Shown one piece after another: positions 42,990 through 53,494 of a DNA stretch of 64,000 bases (its first letter is position 1; each line of letters opens with the position of its first letter). Both the position numbers and the translations under genes were made by a program. The notes below the pieces were generated by a model. It was given only the letters and a program-made list of their open reading frames with translations, did no database searches and was not told the origin of the DNA. Source of the stretch: Sideroxydans lithotrophicus (GTDB taxonomy: Bacteria > Pseudomonadota > Gammaproteobacteria > Burkholderiales > Gallionellaceae). The stretch is from the NCBI GenBank assembly GCA_020723185.1, contig DYJI01000003.1:186001-250000 (forward strand), read 5' to 3'.

Positions 42990-43604
42990 ATGGAAACCAT
43001 TCAAAATCCTGAAGCGTGGAACAAGGGCAAGCTCATCGGCCAGAAGCCGCCGCTAAAGCCAAAGGACATATGGGCTATCCGCTTTCATTTACAAAATAGA
43101 CAAGCCATTCGTGATCTAGCCATGTTCAACTTGGCAATCGATAGCAAACTGCGTGGCTGTGATCTTGTCAGCCTGCATGTTCGAGACGTTACTCACGGAA
43201 ACCAGATACTCCCTCGGGCTATGGTTATCCAGCGGAAAACGCAACGCCCCGTGCAGTTTGAACTGACGGAACCAACCCGGACGGCTGTAGCGGCTTGGAT
43301 TGAGAAAGCACACCTCTGCAGTGATCAAAGTCTATTTCCAAGCCGAATCGCAGGGTCAACCCATATCTCTACGCGACAGTATGCTCGGCTAGTTCACAAA
43401 TGGATCGAGACAGCGGGATTGGATACCTCTTCATACGGTACGCACTCCATGCGTCGTACCAAGGCAACGCTTATCTACAAGCGGACGAAGAATCTGCGGG
43501 CTGTTCAGCTATTGCTTGGACACACCAAGTTGGAAAGCACTGTTCGTTATCTAGGAATCGAAGTTGATGATGCATTGGAGATTTCAGAGCAAACAGAAAT
43601 CTAG
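42990..43604 (+). CDS. Solitary tyrosine recombinase, catalytic domain only
   Basis: 204-residue site-specific recombinase lacking the usual N-terminal core-binding domain, comparable in size to FimB/FimE. Catalytic residues are all present: Arg in SKLRGCDLVSL, Lys in the beta-hairpin (VIQRKTQRPV), HxxR in THSMRRTKAT, His in LLGHTKLE and nucleophile Tyr in VRYLGIE. SD AAGGAG precedes the ATG at 42990 by 5-10 nt. It is not an integron integrase: too short, with no IntI-specific helix region visible. It may be the remnant driver of the accessory region or an invertase-like enzyme. Confidence 0.88.
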   Translation: METIQNPEAWNKGKLIGQKPPLKPKDIWAIRFHLQNRQAIRDLAMFNLAIDSKLRGCDLVSLHVRDVTHGNQILPRAMVIQRKTQRPVQFELTEPTRTAVAAWIEKAHLCSDQSLFPSRIAGSTHISTRQYARLVHKWIETAGLDTSSYGTHSMRRTKATLIYKRTKNLRAVQLLLGHTKLESTVRYLGIEVDDALEISEQTEI

Positions 43605-43661: not shown

Positions 43662-43874
43662 TAATACACAGGACTAGTGCAAATGCGCGCAATCGACAAA
43701 TCTTTTCGGCATCTTTTTTGCCGCCTCCTTAGCGTTGCACCATTTTGAAGCTCGATGGCACTTAATTGGAGCACGAATAGCATGGCTGCGCTTATAAAAC
43801 GTTCATTCATTAGGAATCTATTAGGCTGGCGCGCTTATTGCTCCAACTCAGTTTATTGGGAGCCGGGAGCTAAG

Positions 43875-44450
43875 TTGAAAAAAATTCTGATCATCGATGA
43901 TGTAAGGGACCGTGCGGCATGGCTGAAGGCCAGTCTGGAGCTGGCCGACTTCCACGTGGCCGGGGTGCTGACATGGGAGCAGGTGGACGAGCACGCGATA
44001 CAGGCGGCCTCGGCCGACGTGATTATCGTGGATGCCGATGCGCCGGGACGGGACACGCTGGAGCAGATCAGCCTGATGTCCACCACGCTGGAAAAACCGG
44101 TGGTCGTGCTGGGCGGTCAGAAGGACCAGCAAAGCATTCAGGAAGCGATGCGCGCCGGCGTCAGCGCGTACGTGGCGCACACCATACAGGGCGAGGACCT
44201 GAGCGGGATCATCCATGTGGCGGCGGCGCGCTTCCTGGAACACAAGCGGCTGCGCGACGAATTGAAGGAAGCCCGGAACGAACTGGTCGAGCGCAAGACG
44301 GTGGACCGCGCCAAGGGCATCCTGATGGCTGATAACGGCTACAGCGAGGCGGATGCCTACAAGCGCATGCGCAGCATGGCGATGAGCAAAGGCAAGCGCA
44401 TGGCGGAGATCGCCGAGGCGATCATCCTGGCCAAGGAGCTGAGTGCCTGA
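43875..44450 (+). CDS. nasT: ANTAR antiterminator, NasT type
   Basis: 191-residue RNA-binding regulator of nitrate assimilation. It has an N-terminal pseudo-receiver domain (KKILIIDDVRDRAAWLKA; ...VIIVDADAPGRDTLEQI) and a C-terminal ANTAR domain (about 130-190) with VDRAKGILM, EADAYKRMRSMAMSKGKRM. ANTAR binds paired hexaloop hairpins in leader RNA and prevents terminator formation. The start is TTG 43875 with GGGAG upstream; this is where NasT proteins begin, although the frame is open back to 43755. The sensor NasS that normally holds NasT inactive is not encoded nearby. Its likely targets are the leaders at 44630-44714 and 47944-48040. Confidence 0.88.
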   Translation: MKKILIIDDVRDRAAWLKASLELADFHVAGVLTWEQVDEHAIQAASADVIIVDADAPGRDTLEQISLMSTTLEKPVVVLGGQKDQQSIQEAMRAGVSAYVAHTIQGEDLSGIIHVAAARFLEHKRLRDELKEARNELVERKTVDRAKGILMADNGYSEADAYKRMRSMAMSKGKRMAEIAEAIILAKELSA

Positions 44451-44597
44451 CGGGCGGCATGCAGTGTGCAAGCGCACCGTTATGGCATGAGTGGTGCACC
44501 AGAATGGGACGGCAGAGGCATCTGCTGTGCAGGCTCAAGTGGGAAGCGAAATCGATATTCCCATAGATAACAACGAGTAATAGCTAACCGGATTTGC

Positions 44598-44613
44598 TGG
44601 CACGGCTGTTGCT
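44598..44613 (+). promoter_or_regulatory. Sigma-54 promoter of the nrt operon
   Basis: TGGCACG-GCTG-TTGCT matches the -24/-12 consensus TGGCACGNNNNTTGCW exactly, with the GG and GC dinucleotides at correct spacing. Transcription should start near 44624, just before the ANTAR hairpins. This implies RpoN and an enhancer-binding protein such as NtrC (known for nitrogen genes, not shown here). Confidence 0.85.
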
Positions 44614-44629
44614 TATAAGCAGGCATCAA

Positions 44630-44714
44630 CGGATCAACGGCGATTCGAAGGATTTGCAACAAAGGACAAAGGCGTCCCACTGCGTACAGCGCAGTCGGAC
44701 GCCTTTTTTATTTT
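44630..44714 (+). ncRNA. ANTAR-target attenuator leader of nrtA
   Basis: P1 (44630-44647): CGGATC / GATTCG around hexaloop AACGGC. P2 (44664-44677): GGAC / GTCC around hexaloop AAAGGC. Both loops have A at position 1 and G at 4, the ANTAR recognition pattern. P2 overlaps the 5' arm of an intrinsic terminator: AAAGGCGTCC (44668-44677) and ACTGCG pair with CGCAGT and GGACGCCTTT, followed by Ts at 44704-44709. NasT binding to P1-P2 would exclude the terminator and allow nrt transcription; without it, RNA synthesis stops about 35 nt before the nrtA ATG. Confidence 0.85.
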
Positions 44715-44747
44715 CGAGCCAAAGGTTTTCTATAAGGAGATTTGAAG

Positions 44748-46043
44748 ATGGACAAGTCAAAACTGGAAACGGTCGTTGCGAGCGCGCAAGCGCAAGCGCC
44801 AGAACAGAACAGTCGGAGGGAATTCATGAAAAAGACAGGTGCGGTACTGGGTGCGGCGGGGATCATGTCGATGGTCCCCATGGGAACACGGGCTGCGGCC
44901 TGGGCTGCGGGCTCGGATGCGCCCGAGTTGAAGGAAGTGAAGGTCGGCTTCATTCCGTTGACCGATTGCGCGTCGGTGGTGATCGCCTCGCTGATGAAGT
45001 TCGACGAGAAATACGGCATCAAGATCATCCCCTCCAAGGAGGCATCCTGGGCGGCGGTGCGCGACAAGGTAGTCAACGGCGAACTGCACGCCGCGCACAT
45101 CCTGTACGGCATGGTGTACGGCGTGCATCTGGGCATCGGCGGCAACCAGAAAGACATGGCCGTGCTGATGACCATCGACAACAACGGCCAGGGTATCTCG
45201 CTGGCCAACCAGCTCAAGGACAAGGGCGTCACCGACGGCCCTTCGCTGGCGAAGCTGATCAAGGCGCAGCCGCGCGAATATACCTTCGCCCACACCTTCC
45301 CGACCGGCACGCACGCCATGTGGCTGTATTACTGGCTGGCGAACTACGGCATCAATCCGATCTCCGAAGTGAAGACCATCACCGTGCCGCCGCCGCAGAT
45401 GGTGGCCAACGCGCGCGTCGGCAGCATGGACGGTTTTTGCGTGGGCGAGCCGTGGAACGCGCGCGGCATCTACGACAACGTCAGCTTCTCGGTGGCGTCG
45501 TCGCAGGATGTCTGGCCGGACCATCCGGAAAAGGTGCTGGGTGCCACGGACGAGTTCGTGCAGAAATATCCCAACACCGCGCGCGCGCTGGTCATGGCGA
45601 TGCTGGATGCGGCGAAGTTCATCGATGCCGAGTCGAACCGCGCCAAGGTGGCGCAGATTATCTCCGCCAAGTCCTACGTCAATGCGCCGGTCGATGTCAT
45701 CGAGGGGCGCTTCCTGGGCAACTATGAAGACGGTCTGGGCAAGAAGTGGCACGACCCCAACCACATGAAGTTCTTCAACGACGGCAAGGTGCCGTTCCCC
45801 TACCTGTCCGACGGCATGTGGTTCCTCACCCAGCACAAGCGCTGGGGCCTGCTCAAGGATGATCCGGACTATCTGGGCGTCGCCAAGCAGATCAACAAGA
45901 TCGAGTTGTACAAACAGGCCGCGTCGCAGGTCAAGGTAGCCGTGCCCAAGGACGTGATGCGCTCCTCCAAACTGATCGACGGCAAGGTATGGGATGGCAA
46001 GGATCCCAAGCAGTACGCGGCCAGTTTCAAGGTGCGGGCATGA
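44748..46043 (+). CDS. nrtA: ABC nitrate transporter, substrate-binding protein
   Basis: 431 residues. It carries a twin-arginine signal, NSRREFMKKTGAVLGAAGIM, so it is exported folded by Tat. The mature part is of the NrtA/CmpA/SsuA-like class, with VKVGFIPLTDCASVVIAS and YTFAHTFPTGTHAMWLYYWL, the typical nitrate-binding architecture. ATG 44748 follows AAGGAGA by 7 nt. It is the first gene behind the sigma-54 promoter and ANTAR leader. Being exported, it cannot act as the cytoplasmic sensor NasS, although the two are homologous. The stop overlaps the nrtB start. Confidence 0.9.
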   Translation: MDKSKLETVVASAQAQAPEQNSRREFMKKTGAVLGAAGIMSMVPMGTRAAAWAAGSDAPELKEVKVGFIPLTDCASVVIASLMKFDEKYGIKIIPSKEASWAAVRDKVVNGELHAAHILYGMVYGVHLGIGGNQKDMAVLMTIDNNGQGISLANQLKDKGVTDGPSLAKLIKAQPREYTFAHTFPTGTHAMWLYYWLANYGINPISEVKTITVPPPQMVANARVGSMDGFCVGEPWNARGIYDNVSFSVASSQDVWPDHPEKVLGATDEFVQKYPNTARALVMAMLDAAKFIDAESNRAKVAQIISAKSYVNAPVDVIEGRFLGNYEDGLGKKWHDPNHMKFFNDGKVPFPYLSDGMWFLTQHKRWGLLKDDPDYLGVAKQINKIELYKQAASQVKVAVPKDVMRSSKLIDGKVWDGKDPKQYAASFKVRA

Positions 46044-46813
46044 TGAAGATCAGAAGCTTCTTTGCGGAGCATCTGCTTCCGCCGGCCATCGGCATCGGCG
46101 TGTTCATCCTGGTGTGGAGCCTGATCGCGCAGACCGGCGACAACCTGCCGGGGCCGCTCAAAACCTGGGACTCAGCGGTGATCCTGTTCAGCGATCCGTT
46201 CTACCAGAACGGACCGAACGACCAGGGCATCGGCTGGAACGTGCTCGCTTCGCTGGGGCGTGTCGGTATCGGCTTCGGTCTGGCAGCGCTGGTCGGGATA
46301 CCGCTGGGCTTCCTGATCGGGCGCGTCGACTTCCTCAACAAGATGAGCGCGCCGGTGGTGAGCATGCTGCGGCCGGTGTCGCCGCTGGCGTGGCTGCCAA
46401 TCGGCCTGCTGGTGTTCAACGCATCGAACCCGGCCGCCATCTGGGTGATCTTCATCTCCAGCATCTGGCCGATGATCATCAACACCGCGATGGGCGTGCG
46501 CCAGCTGCCGCAGGATTACCTCAATGTGGCGCGCGTACTGAACCTGTCCGAATGGAAGGTGTTCGCCAAGATCCTGTTGCCCGCAACGCTGCCCTACATG
46601 CTGACCGGCATCCGTCTGGCCATAGGCACAGCGTGGCTGGTGATCGTCGCGGCGGAGATGCTGACCGGCGGCGTGGGCATCGGCTTCTGGGTGTGGGATG
46701 AGTGGAACAACCTGAACGTCGAACACATCATCATCGCCATCTTTGTGGTCGGCATCGTCGGCCTACTGCTGGAGATGATGCTGATTCAGATCGCCAAGCG
46801 ATTCAGTTACTGA
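46040..46813 (+). CDS. nrtB: ABC nitrate transporter, permease
   Basis: 257 residues with about six transmembrane segments, of the NrtB/SsuC type. The permease signature lies in VARVLNLSEWKVFAKILLPA then TLPYMLTGIRLAIGTAW, which is the EAA loop contacting the ATPase. It begins at ATG 46040, overlapping the nrtA stop by 4 nt (ATGA); a second ATG follows directly. The ATPase gene starts 11 bp after its stop. Confidence 0.9.
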   Translation: MMKIRSFFAEHLLPPAIGIGVFILVWSLIAQTGDNLPGPLKTWDSAVILFSDPFYQNGPNDQGIGWNVLASLGRVGIGFGLAALVGIPLGFLIGRVDFLNKMSAPVVSMLRPVSPLAWLPIGLLVFNASNPAAIWVIFISSIWPMIINTAMGVRQLPQDYLNVARVLNLSEWKVFAKILLPATLPYMLTGIRLAIGTAWLVIVAAEMLTGGVGIGFWVWDEWNNLNVEHIIIAIFVVGIVGLLLEMMLIQIAKRFSY

Positions 46814-46824
46814 GCGGGGATGCC

Positions 46825-47616
46825 ATGAAAAAATACGTGCAAATCGAGAATGTGCAGATGGTGTTCGGCACCAAGCAGGGACCGTTCATCGCGCTCAGGG
46901 ACATCGACCTGAAGATCGATCCGGGCGAATTCATCACGCTGATCGGCCACTCCGGCTGCGGCAAGTCCACCTTGCTCAACCTGATCGCCGGGCTGTTGCT
47001 GCCCAGCGAGGGGGTGATGCTGTGTGCCAATCGCGAGATCACCGGGCCCGGCCCGGATCGCGGCGTGGTGTTCCAGAACCATTCGCTGCTGCCCTGGCTG
47101 ACCTGTTTCGAGAACGTGCATCTCGCGGTCGAGCGCGTGTTCGGGCAAACGGAGAGCAAGGCGCAACTCGCGCAGCGCACCAACGATGCGCTGGAGCTGG
47201 TGCATCTGTCGCATGCGGCGCAGAAATTGCCGCACGAGATATCCGGCGGCATGAAGCAGCGCGTCGGCATCGCGCGCGCGCTGTCCATGCAACCCAAAGT
47301 GCTGCTGATGGACGAGCCGTTCGGGGCGCTGGATGCGCTGACCCGCGCCCACCTGCAGGACGAACTGATGAAGATCGTGGCCGACACCAAGAGCACCGTG
47401 GTGATGGTGACGCACGATGTGGACGAGGCGGTGCTGCTGTCCGACCGCATCGTGATGATGACCAACGGCCCGGCCGCCACCATCGGCGAGATATTGATGG
47501 TGGACCTGCCCAAACCGCGCAATCGCCTGGCCTTGGCCAACGATGCGAAGTACCACAGCCTGCGCGGCGCGGTGCTGGAGTTCCTGTATCAGAAGCAGGC
47601 CAGGAAAGCGGCCTGA
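46825..47616 (+). CDS. nrtD: ABC nitrate transporter, ATP-binding protein
   Basis: 263 residues. Walker A GHSGCGKST, signature ISGGMKQRVGIARAL, Walker B LLMDEPFGALDALT, H-loop MVTHDVDEA. It is a single ATPase domain without the C-terminal solute-binding extension of cyanobacterial NrtC, so the NrtD-type name fits best. The start ATG at 46825 gives MKKYVQIENVQMVF; the longer frame to 46702 lies in nrtB. Homologues serving sulfonate or bicarbonate exist; context favours nitrate. Confidence 0.9.
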   Translation: MKKYVQIENVQMVFGTKQGPFIALRDIDLKIDPGEFITLIGHSGCGKSTLLNLIAGLLLPSEGVMLCANREITGPGPDRGVVFQNHSLLPWLTCFENVHLAVERVFGQTESKAQLAQRTNDALELVHLSHAAQKLPHEISGGMKQRVGIARALSMQPKVLLMDEPFGALDALTRAHLQDELMKIVADTKSTVVMVTHDVDEAVLLSDRIVMMTNGPAATIGEILMVDLPKPRNRLALANDAKYHSLRGAVLEFLYQKQARKAA

Positions 47617-47620
47617 TGCG

Positions 47621-47896
47621 ATGGGAATGAACATGACCTGCGTCGACATCCTGTACATCGGGCGTCCCAGCGAGTTCCTGCTGACGACCTCGGAACGGCT
47701 GGAAGTGCCGGATGCGGCCCCCACGCTGCAGCAGGTGCTGGGCAGCTTGCGGGCGCGCGGCGCGCGCTGGGCCTACGAACTGGATGAACGGCATGTGATG
47801 TGCACGGTCAACCGGGTCCCCGCTGTCGCGTCGGCACCCCTCGCGGCGGGAGACGAGATCGGCATCTATTCGCGCAAGTCCATCTTCGAGGCGTAG
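47621..47896 (+). CDS. MoaD/ThiS-like beta-grasp protein lacking terminal Gly-Gly
   Basis: About 91 residues. The ThiS/MoaD-like fold is suggested by VDILYIGRPSEFLLTTSERL, TLQQVLGSLRARGARWAYEL and the AAGDEIGIYS turn. Normal MoaD ends in the Gly-Gly that carries sulfur for molybdopterin; here the C-terminus is SRKSIFEA, so it cannot be a standard sulfur carrier. Possible starts are ATG 47621, 47627 or 47633; the last has GGGA at good spacing. It is placed 4 bp after nrtD and just before the nirB attenuator, so it belongs to the nitrate transcript. A role in nitrate reductase cofactor handling is an inference. Confidence 0.65.
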   Translation: MGMNMTCVDILYIGRPSEFLLTTSERLEVPDAAPTLQQVLGSLRARGARWAYELDERHVMCTVNRVPAVASAPLAAGDEIGIYSRKSIFEA

Positions 47897-47943
47897 TGCG
47901 TCGCAGCGGAACGGTTGAATTGAACGGCAGTACGGCAGGCGAA

Positions 47944-48040
47944 GGATCACACCCAACGGCGGGCGCGATCCGGCAGGTAATAACGACAAAGGCGTCGTTT
48001 CGGCCCACCCGGACGGGTAGGGATCGGACGACGTTTTTTT
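47944..48040 (+). ncRNA. ANTAR-target attenuator leader of nirB
   Basis: P1 (47944-47971): GGATC / GATCC outer stem, two A-C mismatches, then CCC / GGG closing hexaloop AACGGC. P2 (47982-47999): AACGAC / GTCGTT around hexaloop AAAGGC. A terminator overlaps P2: CGTCGT (47993-47998) pairs with ACGACG (48028-48033), with an inner CCCACCC / GGGTAGGG stem, then seven Ts (48034-48040). It has the same two hexaloop sequences as the nrtA leader. No sigma-54 site precedes it, so it probably acts within the transcript coming from nrtABD. Confidence 0.82.
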
Positions 48041-48057
48041 ATTGAGAGGAGTGCAAG

Positions 48058-50502
48058 ATGGAACAAAAAAAGAAGCGGCTGGTGGTGGTCGGCAACGGCA
48101 TGGCGGGCATACGCACCATCGAGGAATTGCTCAAGATGTCGGCGGATGAATTCAACATCACCGTGTTCGGTGCCGAGCCGCAGCCCAACTACAACCGCAT
48201 CCTGCTCTCGCCCGTGCTGTCCGGCGAGATGCCGTTCCAGGACACCGTACTGAACGACTGGAGCTGGTACGAGGAGAACCATATCACCCTGCACACGGGC
48301 AAGACGGTGACGAAGATCGACCGCATGCGCTGCACGGTGGAAACGGATGACGGCATCGTCGTGCCCTACGATCGCCTGCTGATCGCCACCGGATCCAATC
48401 CCATCATGCTGCCGGTCCCCGGCATCGATCTGCCCGGCGTGATCGGCTATCGCAGCATCGCCGATGTGGAGCAGATGCTGGCAGCAGCGCAGCCGGGCAA
48501 GCGCGCCGTGGTGATCGGCGGTGGCCTGCTCGGGCTGGAAGCGGCGAATGGTCTGTCGCTGCGCGGCATGCAGGTGTCCGTGGTGCATCTGTGCGAATGG
48601 CCGATGGAGCGCCAGCTGGACAAGGTCGGCGGCGGGCTACTGAAAGAGGCGCTGGAGAAACGCGGCCTGAAGTTCTATCTGTCGCGCCAGACCGACGCCA
48701 TTCTCGGCGAGACGGCGGTCACCGGACTGCGTTTCAAGGACGGTGAAGAGATTGCGGCCGACCTGGTCGTGATGTCGGCGGGTATCCGCCCCAACATCGC
48801 GCTGGCCAAGTCGGCCGGCATCCATTGCGAGCGCGGCATCATGGTGAGCGACACCATGCAGACCTACGACCCGAAGATCTACTCGGTGGGCGAATGCGTG
48901 CAGCATCGCGGCCAGACCTACGGCCTGGTCGCGCCGCTGTTCGAGCAGGCCAAGGTGGCGGCGAACCATCTCGCCCAATACGGCAGGATGCGCTACGAAG
49001 GTTCATCCGTCTCGACCAAACTCAAGGTGACCGGTATCGACCTGTTCTCGGCTGGCGATTTCAATCCGGTGGCGGGGGATGACGAGTTGTTGCTGCAGGA
49101 TGCGGCGCGCGGCGTGTACAAGAAACTAGTGCTGCGCGACAACAAGCTGCGCGGTGCGGTGATGTACGGCGACACGGTGGACGGTCCATGGTATTTCCAG
49201 ATGATGCGCGACGGCACCGATGTGTCGGAGATGCGCGAGCACCTGCTGTTCGGCCAGATGCACCTCGGCGATTCCGGCCACGGCGCCAAGGCTGGCGTGA
49301 TGGATATGCCGGACACGGCCGAGATCTGCGGCTGCAACGGCGTATGCAAGGGCACCATCGTCAACACCATCATAGACAAGAAGCTGTTCACGCTGGACGA
49401 GGTGCGCGCCCATACCAAGGCTTCCGCCTCGTGCGGTTCGTGCACCGGGCTGGTGGAGGCAATCCTGGCGAACACCGTGGGCGGCGATTATTCCGCCAAG
49501 CCGAGCAAGAAGCCGATCTGCGGCTGCACCGAATACGCGCATCAGGATATGCACAAGACGATACGCGAGCGCAGCCTGAAGACCATCCCCGAAGTAATGA
49601 AAGCGCTGGAGTGGAAGACTGAGGACGGTTGCCATGTCTGCCGCCCCGCTCTCAACTACTACCTGTTGGCCGCCTGGCCGGGCGAGTATGTGGACGATAG
49701 CCGCTCGCGTTTCATCAACGAGCGCGTGCATGCCAACATCCAGAAGGACGGCACCTATTCGGTGATCCCGCGCATCTGGGGTGGCGTCACTTCGCCTGCG
49801 CAGTTGCGCGCCATCGCCGAGATCGCCGAGCGCCATGAAGTGCCCACCGTGCACATCACCGGTGGACAGCGTATTGGCTTGTACGGCATCACCAAGGAGA
49901 ATCTGCCCAAGATGTGGGCGGAGCTGGTCGAGGCGGGCTTCGTCTCCGGCCATGCCTACGGCAAATCGCTGCGCACGGTGAAGACCTGCGTCGGTTCGGA
50001 GTGGTGTCGCTTCGGCACGCAGGATTCGACCGGGTTGGGCATCAAGGTGGAGCAGATGACTTGGGGTTCGTGGACGCCGCACAAGTTCAAGATCGCGGTG
50101 TCCGGCTGCCCGCGCAACTGCGCCGAAGCCACCATCAAGGATTTCGGCATTGTCTGCGTGGACTCGGGTTACGAGATACATGTCGGCGGCAACGGCGGCG
50201 TCAAGGTGCGCGTCACCGATTTCCTGTGCAAGGTGTCAAGTGAAGCCGAGGTGCTGGAATATTGCGGCGCCTTCATGCAGCTGTACCGCGAGGACGCCCA
50301 TTACCTGGACCGCACCGCACCGTGGATAGAACGCGTCGGCCTGCCTTTCGTCAAGCGCCACATCGTCGATGACGCGGAGGGCCGTGCCGAGTTGTACGCG
50401 CGCTTCCTCAAGTCGCAGCAATATTCGCAGGACGACCCGTGGAAAGAGCGCGCCGAAGGCAAAGAAGCGCATGAGTTCACCGCACTCGCCACCATCGTAT
50501 AA
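48058..50502 (+). CDS. nirB: Assimilatory nitrite reductase, large subunit
   Basis: 814 residues; reduces nitrite to ammonium with NAD(P)H. The N-terminal FAD/NAD domains begin MEQKKKRLVVVGNGMAGIRT and include VVIGGGLLGLEAA. A BFD-type [2Fe-2S] region contains CGCNGVCKGT and CGSCTG. The C-terminal siroheme/[4Fe-4S] domain has Cys ligands in CVGSEWC and CPRNC with normal spacing. Full length. It follows the ANTAR leader at 47944-48040, and nirD starts 11 bp downstream. The siroheme synthase gene is not in the window. Confidence 0.96.
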   Translation: MEQKKKRLVVVGNGMAGIRTIEELLKMSADEFNITVFGAEPQPNYNRILLSPVLSGEMPFQDTVLNDWSWYEENHITLHTGKTVTKIDRMRCTVETDDGIVVPYDRLLIATGSNPIMLPVPGIDLPGVIGYRSIADVEQMLAAAQPGKRAVVIGGGLLGLEAANGLSLRGMQVSVVHLCEWPMERQLDKVGGGLLKEALEKRGLKFYLSRQTDAILGETAVTGLRFKDGEEIAADLVVMSAGIRPNIALAKSAGIHCERGIMVSDTMQTYDPKIYSVGECVQHRGQTYGLVAPLFEQAKVAANHLAQYGRMRYEGSSVSTKLKVTGIDLFSAGDFNPVAGDDELLLQDAARGVYKKLVLRDNKLRGAVMYGDTVDGPWYFQMMRDGTDVSEMREHLLFGQMHLGDSGHGAKAGVMDMPDTAEICGCNGVCKGTIVNTIIDKKLFTLDEVRAHTKASASCGSCTGLVEAILANTVGGDYSAKPSKKPICGCTEYAHQDMHKTIRERSLKTIPEVMKALEWKTEDGCHVCRPALNYYLLAAWPGEYVDDSRSRFINERVHANIQKDGTYSVIPRIWGGVTSPAQLRAIAEIAERHEVPTVHITGGQRIGLYGITKENLPKMWAELVEAGFVSGHAYGKSLRTVKTCVGSEWCRFGTQDSTGLGIKVEQMTWGSWTPHKFKIAVSGCPRNCAEATIKDFGIVCVDSGYEIHVGGNGGVKVRVTDFLCKVSSEAEVLEYCGAFMQLYREDAHYLDRTAPWIERVGLPFVKRHIVDDAEGRAELYARFLKSQQYSQDDPWKERAEGKEAHEFTALATIV

Positions 50503-50513
50503 GGAGAACTGGA

Positions 50514-50840
50514 ATGAACTGGATACAAGTCGGCAATCTGGAAGACATCCCGCGTCAGGGTTCGCGGGTGGTCAAGACCGCAACAGGCGAGATCGCGCTG
50601 TTCCGCAGCGTGGACGATCAGGTGTTCGCACTCAACAACCGCTGCCCGCACAAAGGCGGGCCGCTGTCGCAAGGCATCGTGCATGGCAAGCGTGTCACCT
50701 GCCCGTTGCACAGCTGGGTGATAGATCTGGAGAGTGGCGAGGCCATCTCACCGGACATCGGATGCGCACATCGGCTTGAAGTGCGCGTCGCCCACGGCGA
50801 ACTGTTTCTCGAAGCCGAGGCGGGAGTATGCAAAGCATGA
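50514..50840 (+). CDS. nirD: Nitrite reductase small subunit, Rieske type
   Basis: 108 residues with a Rieske-like domain. Unlike many NirD proteins, which have lost the cluster ligands, both pairs are present here: CPHKGG and CPLHSW, so it can hold a [2Fe-2S] cluster. Works with NirB in the cytoplasm. SD AAGGAG lies upstream of the ATG. The end overlaps nasA by 13 nt. Confidence 0.92.
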   Translation: MNWIQVGNLEDIPRQGSRVVKTATGEIALFRSVDDQVFALNNRCPHKGGPLSQGIVHGKRVTCPLHSWVIDLESGEAISPDIGCAHRLEVRVAHGELFLEAEAGVCKA

Positions 50841-53494
50841 CTGCGCCGCAGGCCATACGCACCACCTGCCCGTATTGCGGCGTGGGTTGCGGCGTGCTGG
50901 CCACGGTGGCGGAGAGCGGCGAAGTGAAAGTGTCGGGCGATCCGCTGCATCCAGCCAATTTCGGGCGCTTGTGTTCCAAGGGCGCCGCGCTGGCCGAGAC
51001 GTTGGGCAGCGAAGGGCGTCTGCTGCATCCCGTTGTGGACGGTGCGCAAGTCACCTGGGAGACGGCGCTGGATCGCGTGGCCGATGGCTTCAATAAGGTC
51101 ATCGCTGAGCATGGCCGGAATGCGGTGGCGTTCTATGTCTCGGGGCAGTTGCTGACCGAGGATTACTACGTTGCCAACAAACTGATGAAGGGCTTCATCG
51201 GCAGCGCGAACATCGACACCAACTCGCGCCTGTGCATGTCCACGGCGGTGGCGGCGCACAAGCGCGCCTTCGGTGCCGATGCGGTGCCGGTCTGTTATGA
51301 GGATGTCGAGGCCGCTGACTTGGTGGTAATCGTCGGTTCCAATTATGCATGGGCGCATCCGGTGCTTTACCAGCGACTGGTCGCGGCGAAAAAATCGCGC
51401 CCGGATATGCGCGTGGTGGTGGTCGACCCGCGCCGTACGGCGACCTGCGACATCGCCGATCTGCATCTGGCCATCGCGCCGGGAAGCGATGCCTACCTGT
51501 TCAACGGCCTGCTGCATCACCTGCGGCGCGAGGATGCACTCGACCTGGCTTATGTCGAGCAACATGTGGAGGGATTCGCCGCCGCTTTCGAGGCGGCGCG
51601 TGCCGTCGATTCGATCCCCGCAGTGGCGCAAGCTTGCGGCGTGCCCGAAACCGATGTCGGCGAGTTCTTCCGCTTGTTCGCGCGCACCGAACGTTGCGTG
51701 ACTATCTTCTCGCAAGGCGTCAACCAATCCTCCAGCGGCGTGGACAAGGCCAACTCGATCATCAACGTGCATCTGGCTACCGGGCGCATCGGCCGTCCCG
51801 GCATGGGGCCGTTCTCGGTCACCGGACAGCCGAATGCGATGGGCGGGCGCGAGGTGGGCGGGCTGGCCAATCAGCTCGCGGCGCATCTGGATTTCTCCGA
51901 TGCGGCGAGTGTCGATCTGGTGCGGCGCTTCTGGGATGCGCCGAACATCGCACAAGATCCTGGCTTGAAAGCGGTGGACATGTTCCAGGCCATCGCCGAC
52001 GGCAAGATCAAGGCGGTGTGGATCATGGGCACCAATCCGGTGGTGAGCATGCCGGATGCGGATCGCGTGCGCGCCGCCCTGATGGGATGCGAGCTGGTGG
52101 TGGTCTCCGATTGCGCGCAGCAGACCGACACCACTGCCTGTGCCGACATACTGTTGCCGGCTGCAGGCTGGGGAGAGAAGGATGGTGCAGTGACCAATTC
52201 CGAACGGCGCATCTCGCGTCAGCGATCCTTTCAGCCGGCGGCAGGGGAAGCGCGACCGGACTGGTGGATCATCACGCAGGTGGCGCAGCGCATGGGTTTC
52301 GCCGCTGCGTTCGCATACACGAGACCGGCGCAGATATTCCGCGAACATGCGCGTCTGTCCGGTTTCGAGAATCCGGGCAAGCGCGCCTTCGATATCAGTG
52401 CATTGGCTGATCTGGACGATACGCACTACGAAACATTGCAGCCGCTGCAGTGGCCGTTCAATGAGCGATCACCAAATGGAACACAGCGCCTGCTCGTTGA
52501 CGGAAGGTTCTATACGCCCAACGGCAAGGCGCGCATGACCGCTATCGCACCGCGACTGCCAGCCGTCGCGACCGATGCCGATTTCCCACTGGTACTGAAC
52601 ACCGGCCGTATACGCGACCAGTGGCACACCATGACACGCACCGGCAAAGTGCCGCGCCTGAATGCGCATCAGTTCGAACCCTTCGTGCAGGTCCACGCGC
52701 AGGATGCGGAAGCCTGTCGGCTGCAGGATGGCGGGCTGGCGCGACTTAGCAGTCGACATGGTTCGATGTTGGCCCGGGTCCAGCTCAGTCAGGACCAGCG
52801 GATCGGTTCGGTGTTCGCACCCATGCACTGGAGCGAAACGTATGCAAAATCGTCGCGGGTGGATTCGCTGGTCGCTCCCATCACCGACCCGATCTCCGGA
52901 CAACCGGAATCCAAACATACGCCGGTGCGGGTCGAGCCCTATCTGCCCGCCTGGCAAGGATTCGTGCTGAGCCGCAACAGGCTGGAACTGTCTGGAGCCG
53001 GTTATTGCGCCTGTTCTCAGGGTGACGGCTATTGGCGGCATGAACTTGCGGGCGACATGCTGCCGGAAGACTGGCGCGCATGGGCAAGGGCGTCTCAAGC
53101 AGGTGCCGGCGAATGGATGGAATTTCACGATGCGGCGATGGGGCGTTACCGGGCCGCTCGTGTGCAGGACGGACGGTTGGAAAGTGTGTTTTTCATCGCT
53201 GCCGATCACAGGTTGCCGGAACGTGAGTGGTTGGGCAGTTTGTTTGCCAAGCGCGATCTGTCTACCGCTGAGTTGGCGGGGTTGCTGTCCGCGCGTCCCC
53301 CCAAAGGAGAAGCATCGGAAACCGGGCGTATTGTGTGTGCCTGCTTTAGCGTGGGGGAGAAGTCGCTAGTGAACGCAATCAAGACGCAAGGTTTGACCAG
53401 TGTCGAAGAAGTCGGAGCGCACCTCAAGGCTGGTACAGGTTGTGGTTCGTGTGTGCCGGAGATACGACGATTGATTTCGAAAGCGACAATCTAA
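50828..53494 (+). CDS. nasA: Assimilatory nitrate reductase, catalytic subunit with BFD domain
   Basis: 888 residues of the molybdopterin oxidoreductase family. The N-terminal [4Fe-4S] motif TTCPYCGVGCG is followed by the bis-MGD catalytic domains; substrate-site regions include SRLCMSTAVAAHKRAFG and GPFSVTGQPNAMGGREVGGL. The last 55 residues are a BFD-like [2Fe-2S] domain (GRIVCACFSVGEKSLVNAI ... GTGCGSCVPEI), as in the longer assimilatory NasA/NasC. No separate NasB/NasC reductase is nearby, so electrons must come from elsewhere. ATG 50828 or 50837 could be the start; both lie in the nirD end. It is the last gene of the locus. Confidence 0.94.
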   Translation: MQSMTAPQAIRTTCPYCGVGCGVLATVAESGEVKVSGDPLHPANFGRLCSKGAALAETLGSEGRLLHPVVDGAQVTWETALDRVADGFNKVIAEHGRNAVAFYVSGQLLTEDYYVANKLMKGFIGSANIDTNSRLCMSTAVAAHKRAFGADAVPVCYEDVEAADLVVIVGSNYAWAHPVLYQRLVAAKKSRPDMRVVVVDPRRTATCDIADLHLAIAPGSDAYLFNGLLHHLRREDALDLAYVEQHVEGFAAAFEAARAVDSIPAVAQACGVPETDVGEFFRLFARTERCVTIFSQGVNQSSSGVDKANSIINVHLATGRIGRPGMGPFSVTGQPNAMGGREVGGLANQLAAHLDFSDAASVDLVRRFWDAPNIAQDPGLKAVDMFQAIADGKIKAVWIMGTNPVVSMPDADRVRAALMGCELVVVSDCAQQTDTTACADILLPAAGWGEKDGAVTNSERRISRQRSFQPAAGEARPDWWIITQVAQRMGFAAAFAYTRPAQIFREHARLSGFENPGKRAFDISALADLDDTHYETLQPLQWPFNERSPNGTQRLLVDGRFYTPNGKARMTAIAPRLPAVATDADFPLVLNTGRIRDQWHTMTRTGKVPRLNAHQFEPFVQVHAQDAEACRLQDGGLARLSSRHGSMLARVQLSQDQRIGSVFAPMHWSETYAKSSRVDSLVAPITDPISGQPESKHTPVRVEPYLPAWQGFVLSRNRLELSGAGYCACSQGDGYWRHELAGDMLPEDWRAWARASQAGAGEWMEFHDAAMGRYRAARVQDGRLESVFFIAADHRLPEREWLGSLFAKRDLSTAELAGLLSARPPKGEASETGRIVCACFSVGEKSLVNAIKTQGLTSVEEVGAHLKAGTGCGSCVPEIRRLISKATI

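Follow-up and report, generated by a model that had tools for sequence, protein, structure and literature searches.

A 64,000-nucleotide stretch of DNA from Sideroxydans lithotrophicus (assembly GCA_020723185.1, contig DYJI01000003.1, positions 186,001 to 250,000 of the forward strand), referred to here as the window and numbered from its first letter, holds a nitrate locus in which nasT, nrtA, nrtB, nrtC, a MoaD/ThiS-like gene, nirB, nirD and nasA follow one another on one strand. Two RNA leaders of the ANTAR target type are found in this locus, one (leader 1) before nrtA and the other (leader 2) in the middle of the cluster, 47 bases after the stop codon of the MoaD-like gene and ahead of nirB. 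This arrangement raises the question of whether the internal leader is an independent control point for the reductase genes or a second gate on a transcript that has already passed the first. The evidence gathered here makes it quite likely that the locus carries a NasT-controlled double leader on a single sigma54-driven transcript, with the two gates acting in series.

Two leaders of the ANTAR target type

Both leaders are built from two hairpins, P1 and P2, whose six-base loops read AACGGC and then AAAGGC, each of the four hexaloops starting with A and having G as its fourth base (A1/G4; Table 1). P1 has six pairs in leader 1 and three or more in leader 2, P2 has four and six, and each hairpin thus holds at least the 3 base pairs of the dual-hairpin criterion. 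In each leader P2, the predicted antiterminator, and a predicted intrinsic terminator exclude one another, the 5′ arm of the leader 1 terminator consisting of the P2 loop and the P2 3′ arm. The positions, the loops and the overlap of P2 with the terminator 5′ arm had been given in a preliminary description of this DNA and are exact base for base; its assignment of both leaders to the ANTAR target design agrees with their hairpins, loops and predicted exclusive folds. The features by which an ANTAR target is known at the sequence level were all found: tandem hairpins, A1/G4 loops, predicted exclusivity of P2 and terminator, compensatory changes and an ANTAR protein in the genome. The same description had placed nasT just upstream and the second leader within the operon, and both placements hold, with nasT being the sole ANTAR gene found in a search of the genome and leader 2 standing mid-cluster behind the preceding gene.

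A strict descriptor, requiring two hairpins with A1/G4 hexaloops and an overlapping terminator with 12 or more pairs, was applied to both strands of the 64 kb. Its sole matches were the two leaders, and 20 first-order Markov copies yielded none. None of 200 shuffled sequences folded as stably as either leader (z of -4.33 for leader 1 and -3.38 for leader 2). A simple terminator scan lists neither leader terminator, their loops or stems lying outside the scan rules, and both terminators are taken from folding and the descriptor. When a short hexaloop pattern in the code of the International Union of Pure and Applied Chemistry was searched in the genome, 443 matches were obtained, against 652 for the reversed control.

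A covariance-model search had also been proposed in the preliminary description, and both leaders were recovered with two models built here. Model R1, derived from 32 leaders (both window leaders included, and partly from the related genomes surveyed below), gave 59.8 bits for leader 1 and 50.9 bits for leader 2, the next best match in the window reaching 9.9 bits; in the genome, just these two matches were found at E≤0.01, under stricter filters by which some weak matches are lost. Model R2, derived from 16 nrtA-type leaders of other genomes and holding neither sequences from this genome nor nirB leaders, ranked the window leaders first and second (69.1 and 27.0 bits, followed by 10.6). The cut-off of the Rfam narK RNA family (RF03032, 43.2 bits) was not reached, with an end-to-end match of 36.6 bits (E 8.9e-6) to leader 1 and a weak one of 18.1 bits (E 0.19) to leader 2, and Rfam at gathering cut-offs listed nothing in the window beyond two tRNAs. 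Leader 1 is matched below cut-off by a further family, P11 (RF00625, named 'Pseudomonas sRNA'; 30.9 bits against a cut-off of 70, window positions 44586-44703), and both RF00625 and RF03032 may be families of ANTAR attenuator leaders. With 17 occurrences among the 32 rows that make up alignment A1, the exact loop pair AACGGC/AAAGGC is the norm of the leader family, not a peculiarity of this locus.

Conservation in relatives follows the helices. Across 32 rows, 97.2% of the cells in the P1 and P2 helices are paired, double changes occur in 8 of 10 pairs, and double-change cells number 63, compared with 19.0 in shuffles; with 94 distinct rows, in an alignment fitted to the model, 96.0% of cells are paired and double changes are again seen in 8 of 10 pairs. 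In a set of 149 related genomes, R1 matches of at least 30 bits were found in 34, all of them among the 52 with a NasT/ANTAR match; there were none in the 97 genomes without such a match, nor in 18 of the 52 with one. A survey of the family detected a leader at E≤1e-7 in 54 of 158 genomes, with two or more leaders in 27 of these 54. The regulator of both leaders is very probably NasT. The strong intrinsic terminator predicted at the end of each leader could suggest ordinary terminators or polarity elements in which the hexaloops are incidental, an explanation that is scarcely credible given that P1, which is no part of the terminator, shows covariation and retains its loop, and that strong matches are restricted to genomes with an ANTAR protein.

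Variants of this design have been observed in related loci. In one genome of the same genus (G028), a NIT-ANTAR protein of the NasR type (L177, 3387-4649) replaces NasT while the leaders before the nrt genes and nirB are kept, which suggests that the NasR-type protein and NasT may read the same RNA code. Five leaders standing 5′ of nrtA or other nas genes (L072, L082, L079, L070 and L076) have three consecutive A1/G4 hexaloop hairpins between the sigma54 site and the terminator instead of the usual two, and in L067 and L068 an extra middle hairpin with a different loop was noted by eye. A three-hairpin ANTAR leader could bind extra NasT or switch partners.

One transcript or two

The only exact match to a sigma54 (-24/-12) promoter in the window, TGGCACGGCTGTTGCT, ends 16 bases 5′ of leader 1 P1. 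An ntrC orthologue is present elsewhere in the genome (701.4 bits), and a search for NtrC sites gave 57 matches, against 54.9 expected. Upstream of leader 2 no sigma54-like site above random was found in this genome, and a simple scan of positions 47200-48060, blind to the leader terminators as well, detected neither a sigma70-like site nor a further terminator-like site.

The same comparison has been extended to relatives by scoring the 142 bases 5′ of each leader (fewer for L178) with a matrix trained on 71 of these promoters. The 96 leader rows, this genome included, correspond to 98 less L049 (a duplicate of L183) and less a second match within the L067 leader, with G122 still present twice. 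Scores of at least 11.0 were obtained for 85 rows and of at most -0.7 for the remaining 11, where random stretches have a median of -8.9 and a 95% value of 0.5; a plain sigma54 pattern misses the same 11 and a further 11 leaders that the matrix scores high. The 11 promoterless rows are all nirB leaders (G000, G004, G007, G013, G014, G018, G027, G029, G032, G042 and G075), come from this genome and from ten relatives in three genera, and stand directly behind nrtC or the MoaD-like gene. Within them the loops do not vary, and P2 with its loop and six pairs, taken together with a P1 core of loop and three closing pairs, gives 30 columns, of which 29 are invariant; the same holds for 2 of the 26 other positions compared. 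The terminator is kept as well, while linkers and upstream sequence diverge freely. Apparently the internal leader lost its promoter and kept its switch, as would be expected if read-through from nrtC were its input. Since no promoter is recognised before leader 2, the reductase genes most likely need read-through at both leaders. Leader 2 would then most likely lie inside one transcript, and the two independent check points originally envisaged are not upheld in that form, no promoter having been recognised before leader 2 and a single NasT being expected to serve both.

Two other accounts of the internal leader have to be weighed here. If nirB had a promoter that escaped recognition, leader 2 would head a second NasT-controlled transcript and the leaders would act in parallel. 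Such an arrangement is common in relatives: a leader precedes nirB, either immediately or with a MoaD-like gene in between, in 30 genomes, 19 of which have a sigma54 site there, and in G037 the promoter is retained even though the nirB leader stands behind nrtC. For the present locus it is improbable, in view of the lack of an above-random sigma54-like site in this genome and ten others, the empty scan for sigma70-like and terminator-like sites, and the mere 47 bases that separate the MoaD-like stop codon from leader 2 P1. Alternatively, leader 2 could be a relic of an old nirB operon head, kept by inertia and devoid of regulatory effect. In a quick nirB tree, where most leaders retain a promoter, the promoterless state requires two changes, either a double loss or one loss that was later reversed, pointing to a promoter that disappeared while the leader remained, and no nirB leader was found in some relatives, such as G044, G074 and G088. 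From this tree only the count for the promoterless group has been used, its label 'none' also covering genomes with a nirB start cut off or a leader not assigned (G178 and G180 have R1 matches). A relic is very hard to reconcile with the near-complete invariance of the core in 11 genomes and with the retained terminator, against diverged linkers and upstream sequence, and is considered highly unlikely.

Two probable gates in series

In the series arrangement, nitrogen limitation would start one transcript about 10 bases 3′ of the sigma54 promoter through NtrC and sigma54, a step suggested by the promoter and the presence of ntrC. With no active NasT, the terminator of leader 1 would fold and transcription would stop short of nrtA; once NasT is active, its ANTAR domains would bind P1 and P2, P2 would be held and the terminator blocked, and nrtABC and the MoaD-like gene would be made. 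The same polymerase would then meet leader 2, where a second NasT-dependent passage would be required before nirB, nirD and nasA. Read-through to the reductases should approximate the fraction passing leader 1 multiplied by that passing leader 2, so that the reductase genes would leak less and respond to NasT more steeply than the uptake genes. Gates in series would therefore allow the internal leader to lower or sharpen reductase output relative to transport. The sequences, the mutually exclusive predicted folds, the covariation, the conservation and the absence of a recognisable leader 2 promoter are observed, whereas NasT binding, termination, read-through, co-transcription and the dose effect are what we infer from them.

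Comparable systems have been described. In the eut genes of Enterococcus faecalis, controlled by EutV and EutW, dual-hairpin ANTAR targets overlap terminators upstream of eutP, eutG, eutS and eutA (PMC3369931). As in eut, ANTAR leaders are interspersed along one operon in a manner consistent with serial attenuation, and the internal leader here has no recognised sigma54-like or sigma70-like promoter. The two differ in that EutV is activated by phosphorylation by EutW, while beside NasT no kinase gene was recognised (an inspection by eye of the open reading frames of the window, with no domain scan and no genome-wide test), and in that the present system has nitrate genes and a sigma54 promoter. 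In Paracoccus denitrificans, NasT binds the nasA leader RNA and is held by cytoplasmic NasS, a signal-less NrtA-like protein, until nitrate or nitrite is bound (PMC3795266); a NasT-type ANTAR protein and a hairpin leader are common to both organisms, unlike NasS, for which no counterpart was found in this genome. The Klebsiella NasR-nasF leader is a two-hairpin antiterminator for nitrate assimilation in which NasR senses through its own NIT domain (PMC3369931; PMC3795266). The two-hairpin logic is shared, and G028, with its NIT-ANTAR protein in place of NasT, resembles this system further. The consensus of the narK RNA RF03032 likewise holds a P1 with CAACGGCG and a P2-like CGACAAAGACGUCG box; both window leaders nevertheless fall below its cut-off, and the upstream promoter-like part of that model is poorly matched in leader 2.

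A further parallel to a double NasT leader comes from Bradyrhizobium diazoefficiens, where NasT hairpins have been predicted before two genes of the narK-bjgb-flp-nasC operon (PMC6759348) and narK-lacZ expression needs NasT under aerobic conditions (PMC4724949), although NasS is present there and the gene order is different. Read-through that no longer depends on nitrate has been reported for a Bradyrhizobium nasS mutant (PMC4724949). Serial ANTAR terminators are already established for eut and predicted for NasT in narK-bjgb, and the double nitrate leader is accordingly a well-preserved new case of a known form of control. Three points weigh against the proposed NasT-dependent serial control. 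In denitrifying cells of a Bradyrhizobium nasT mutant, narK-bjgb-flp was reported to be up and the downstream nasC unchanged (PMC6759348), which indicates that a predicted leader is no proof of positive control. In leader 2 the P1 stem is perfect for just three pairs from the loop and imperfect beyond them. Finally, a non-consensus promoter is possible in the 47 bases before leader 2 or inside the preceding genes.

The nitrate sensor

NasT has the receiver-like and ANTAR domains that a NasS-NasT system requires. A separate NasS, the customary partner of NasT and an NrtA-like protein without an export signal, was not found in the genome, which is 99.98% complete; the preliminary description had not remarked on this absence. 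The only close NrtA/NasS homologue found is NrtA of the operon, with a signal of the twin-arginine translocation (Tat) type; two further PF13379 proteins are remote (63.5 and 45.3 bits), and their N-termini, judged by eye, resemble export signals. It is tentatively proposed that NrtA, the nitrate-binding protein of uptake, doubles as a cytoplasmic nitrate sensor that holds NasT. Tat substrates fold before export, and the NrtA precursor could thus bind nitrate and NasT inside the cell. With the sensor gene located between the leaders, leader 1 could not shut tightly without losing the sensor. Leader 1 would accordingly leak and self-titrate, NasT making NrtA and NrtA holding NasT, and leader 2 would serve as the tight reductase gate. 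In relatives without matching transporter genes, NrtA would have lost its signal peptide and become a dedicated NasS. In the portion of the literature covered, no paper was found on NrtA as the sensor of NasT.

Comparison of 63 NrtA rows (53 and 10 added), with signals labelled by pattern and by eye, gave 45 with a Tat signal, one of which (G059) is truncated at the end of its contig; in the other 18 no signal could be recognised. No nrtB orthologue (>55%) accompanies these 18 in the stretches fetched, some of them short, and several of the genomes possess another NrtABC-type transporter, with roughly 32-34% identity. NasT is encoded in 17 of these genomes, in some cases on a different contig, the exception being G177, which is 69% complete. 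The signal-less gene lies directly before nasT in G122, G051, G178 and G180, and in G023 the signal sequence shows clear decay, with a leader of only 26.1 bits before that gene. The mature domain of the window NrtA groups with ten signal-less proteins (support 100/100, in a 13-row set with two more Tat rows), having 84% identity to one of them and 79% to the Tat-bearing NrtA of its own genus. The nrtA gene (44748-46043) looks mosaic, with a genus-like signal region and a mature domain nearest to signal-less homologues of the sensor type. Four positions counted among the nitrate ligands of NrtA, W, Q, H and K (aligned on 2g29), are kept in all 63 rows.

There is about an even chance that NasT is instead constitutively active, or under an unknown partner or modification other than NrtA, with nitrate acting elsewhere. 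Export would leave most NrtA outside the cytoplasm, and an NrtA orthologue (E≤1e-100), detected in 49 of the 56 NasT genomes of the family, is missing from the other seven, which weighs against a sensor role of NrtA. Among these seven, G201 is 99% complete, no PF13379 protein was found in G165 (92% complete), G041 has a 39% NrtA homologue, and G200 and G201 keep only a remote NrtA of the transporter type. Conversely, three of 52 NrtA genomes are without NasT (G059, G066 and G177), all of them less than 90% complete. NrtA as an obligatory partner of NasT is therefore not strictly upheld. Against independence from NrtA stand the 49 genomes with an orthologue and the signal-less copies that occur together with NasT where nrtBC orthologues are missing, four of which immediately precede nasT. 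G028, in which the NIT-ANTAR protein replaces NasT, keeps both leaders, and no NrtA orthologue was found there. In two NasT loci without an NrtA orthologue, long proteins resembling phosphatase-kinase fusions, named by eye, adjoin a nitrate transporter-like gene (L190, 10293-11999 and 13465-15189; L199, 10221-11951 after orientation).

Other features of the locus

The features of the locus are collected in Table 1. At up to two mismatches the sigma54 pattern gives 13 sites, against 27.4 expected, and the site upstream of nasT is weak by itself. The MoaD/ThiS-like gene between nrtC and leader 2 has about 40-60% identity to its counterpart in most relatives with a detectable copy, and no copy was found in other relatives. 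For nasA, matches to NCBIfam are below cut-off and the name follows from domain make-up and position. A short tyrosine-recombinase-like protein at 42990-43604, just 5′ of nasT, is a possible trace of mobility at the edge of the locus. A search for loci related to the window returned 49, of which 7 have a close NasT (at least 75% identity) and 42 one at 45% or less.

Table 1. Leaders, promoter sites and genes of the nitrate locus, in window coordinates.
Feature	Position	Strand	Description
sigma54-like site 5′ of nasT	43827..43842	+	one mismatch
nasT	43875..44450	+	receiver-like domain and ANTAR RNA-binding domain; Pfam ANTAR 66.4 bits, Response_reg 40.2 bits
sigma54 (-24/-12) promoter	44598..44613	+	TGGCACGGCTGTTGCT; only exact match in window
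Leader 1 P1	44630..44647	+	CGGAUC[AACGGC]GAUUCG; hexaloop AACGGC at 44636-44641
Leader 1 P2	44664..44677	+	predicted antiterminator; GGAC[AAAGGC]GUCC; hexaloop AAAGGC at 44668-44673
Leader 1 intrinsic terminator	44668..44709	+	predicted, about -28.6 kcal/mol; U-run 44704-44709; exclusive with P2
nrtA	44748..46043	+	nitrate-binding protein; Tat-type signal SRREFMKK; candidate sensor
nrtB	46040..46813	+	nitrate permease of the ATP-binding cassette (ABC) type; TIGR01183
nrtC	46825..47616	+	nitrate ABC ATPase; TIGR01184
MoaD/ThiS-like gene	47633..47896	+	small protein; Pfam ThiS 25.6 bits
Leader 2 P1	47944..47971	+	hexaloop AACGGC at 47955-47960
Leader 2 P2	47982..47999	+	predicted antiterminator; AACGAC[AAAGGC]GUCGUU; hexaloop AAAGGC at 47988-47993
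Leader 2 intrinsic terminator	47988..48040	+	predicted, about -26.9 kcal/mol; U-run 48034-48040; exclusive with P2
nirB	48058..50502	+	nitrite reductase large subunit; TIGR02374 941.8 bits
nirD	50514..50840	+	nitrite reductase small subunit; TIGR02378 95.1 bits
nasA	50828..53494	+	assimilatory nitrate reductase, nasA type; Pfam molybdopterin domains and C-terminal BFD domain

Significance

For nitrate use, the locus offers a clean and conserved instance of serial control, with two like RNA gates on a single predicted transcript. The 11 genomes with a promoterless nirB leader, the 19 in which this leader has a promoter and the others in which none was found constitute a natural comparison, through which the value of serial attenuation becomes testable. 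If NrtA is the sensor, uptake and sensing would be joined in one exported protein, and the family would show a route by which the binding protein of a transporter may become a dedicated NasS.

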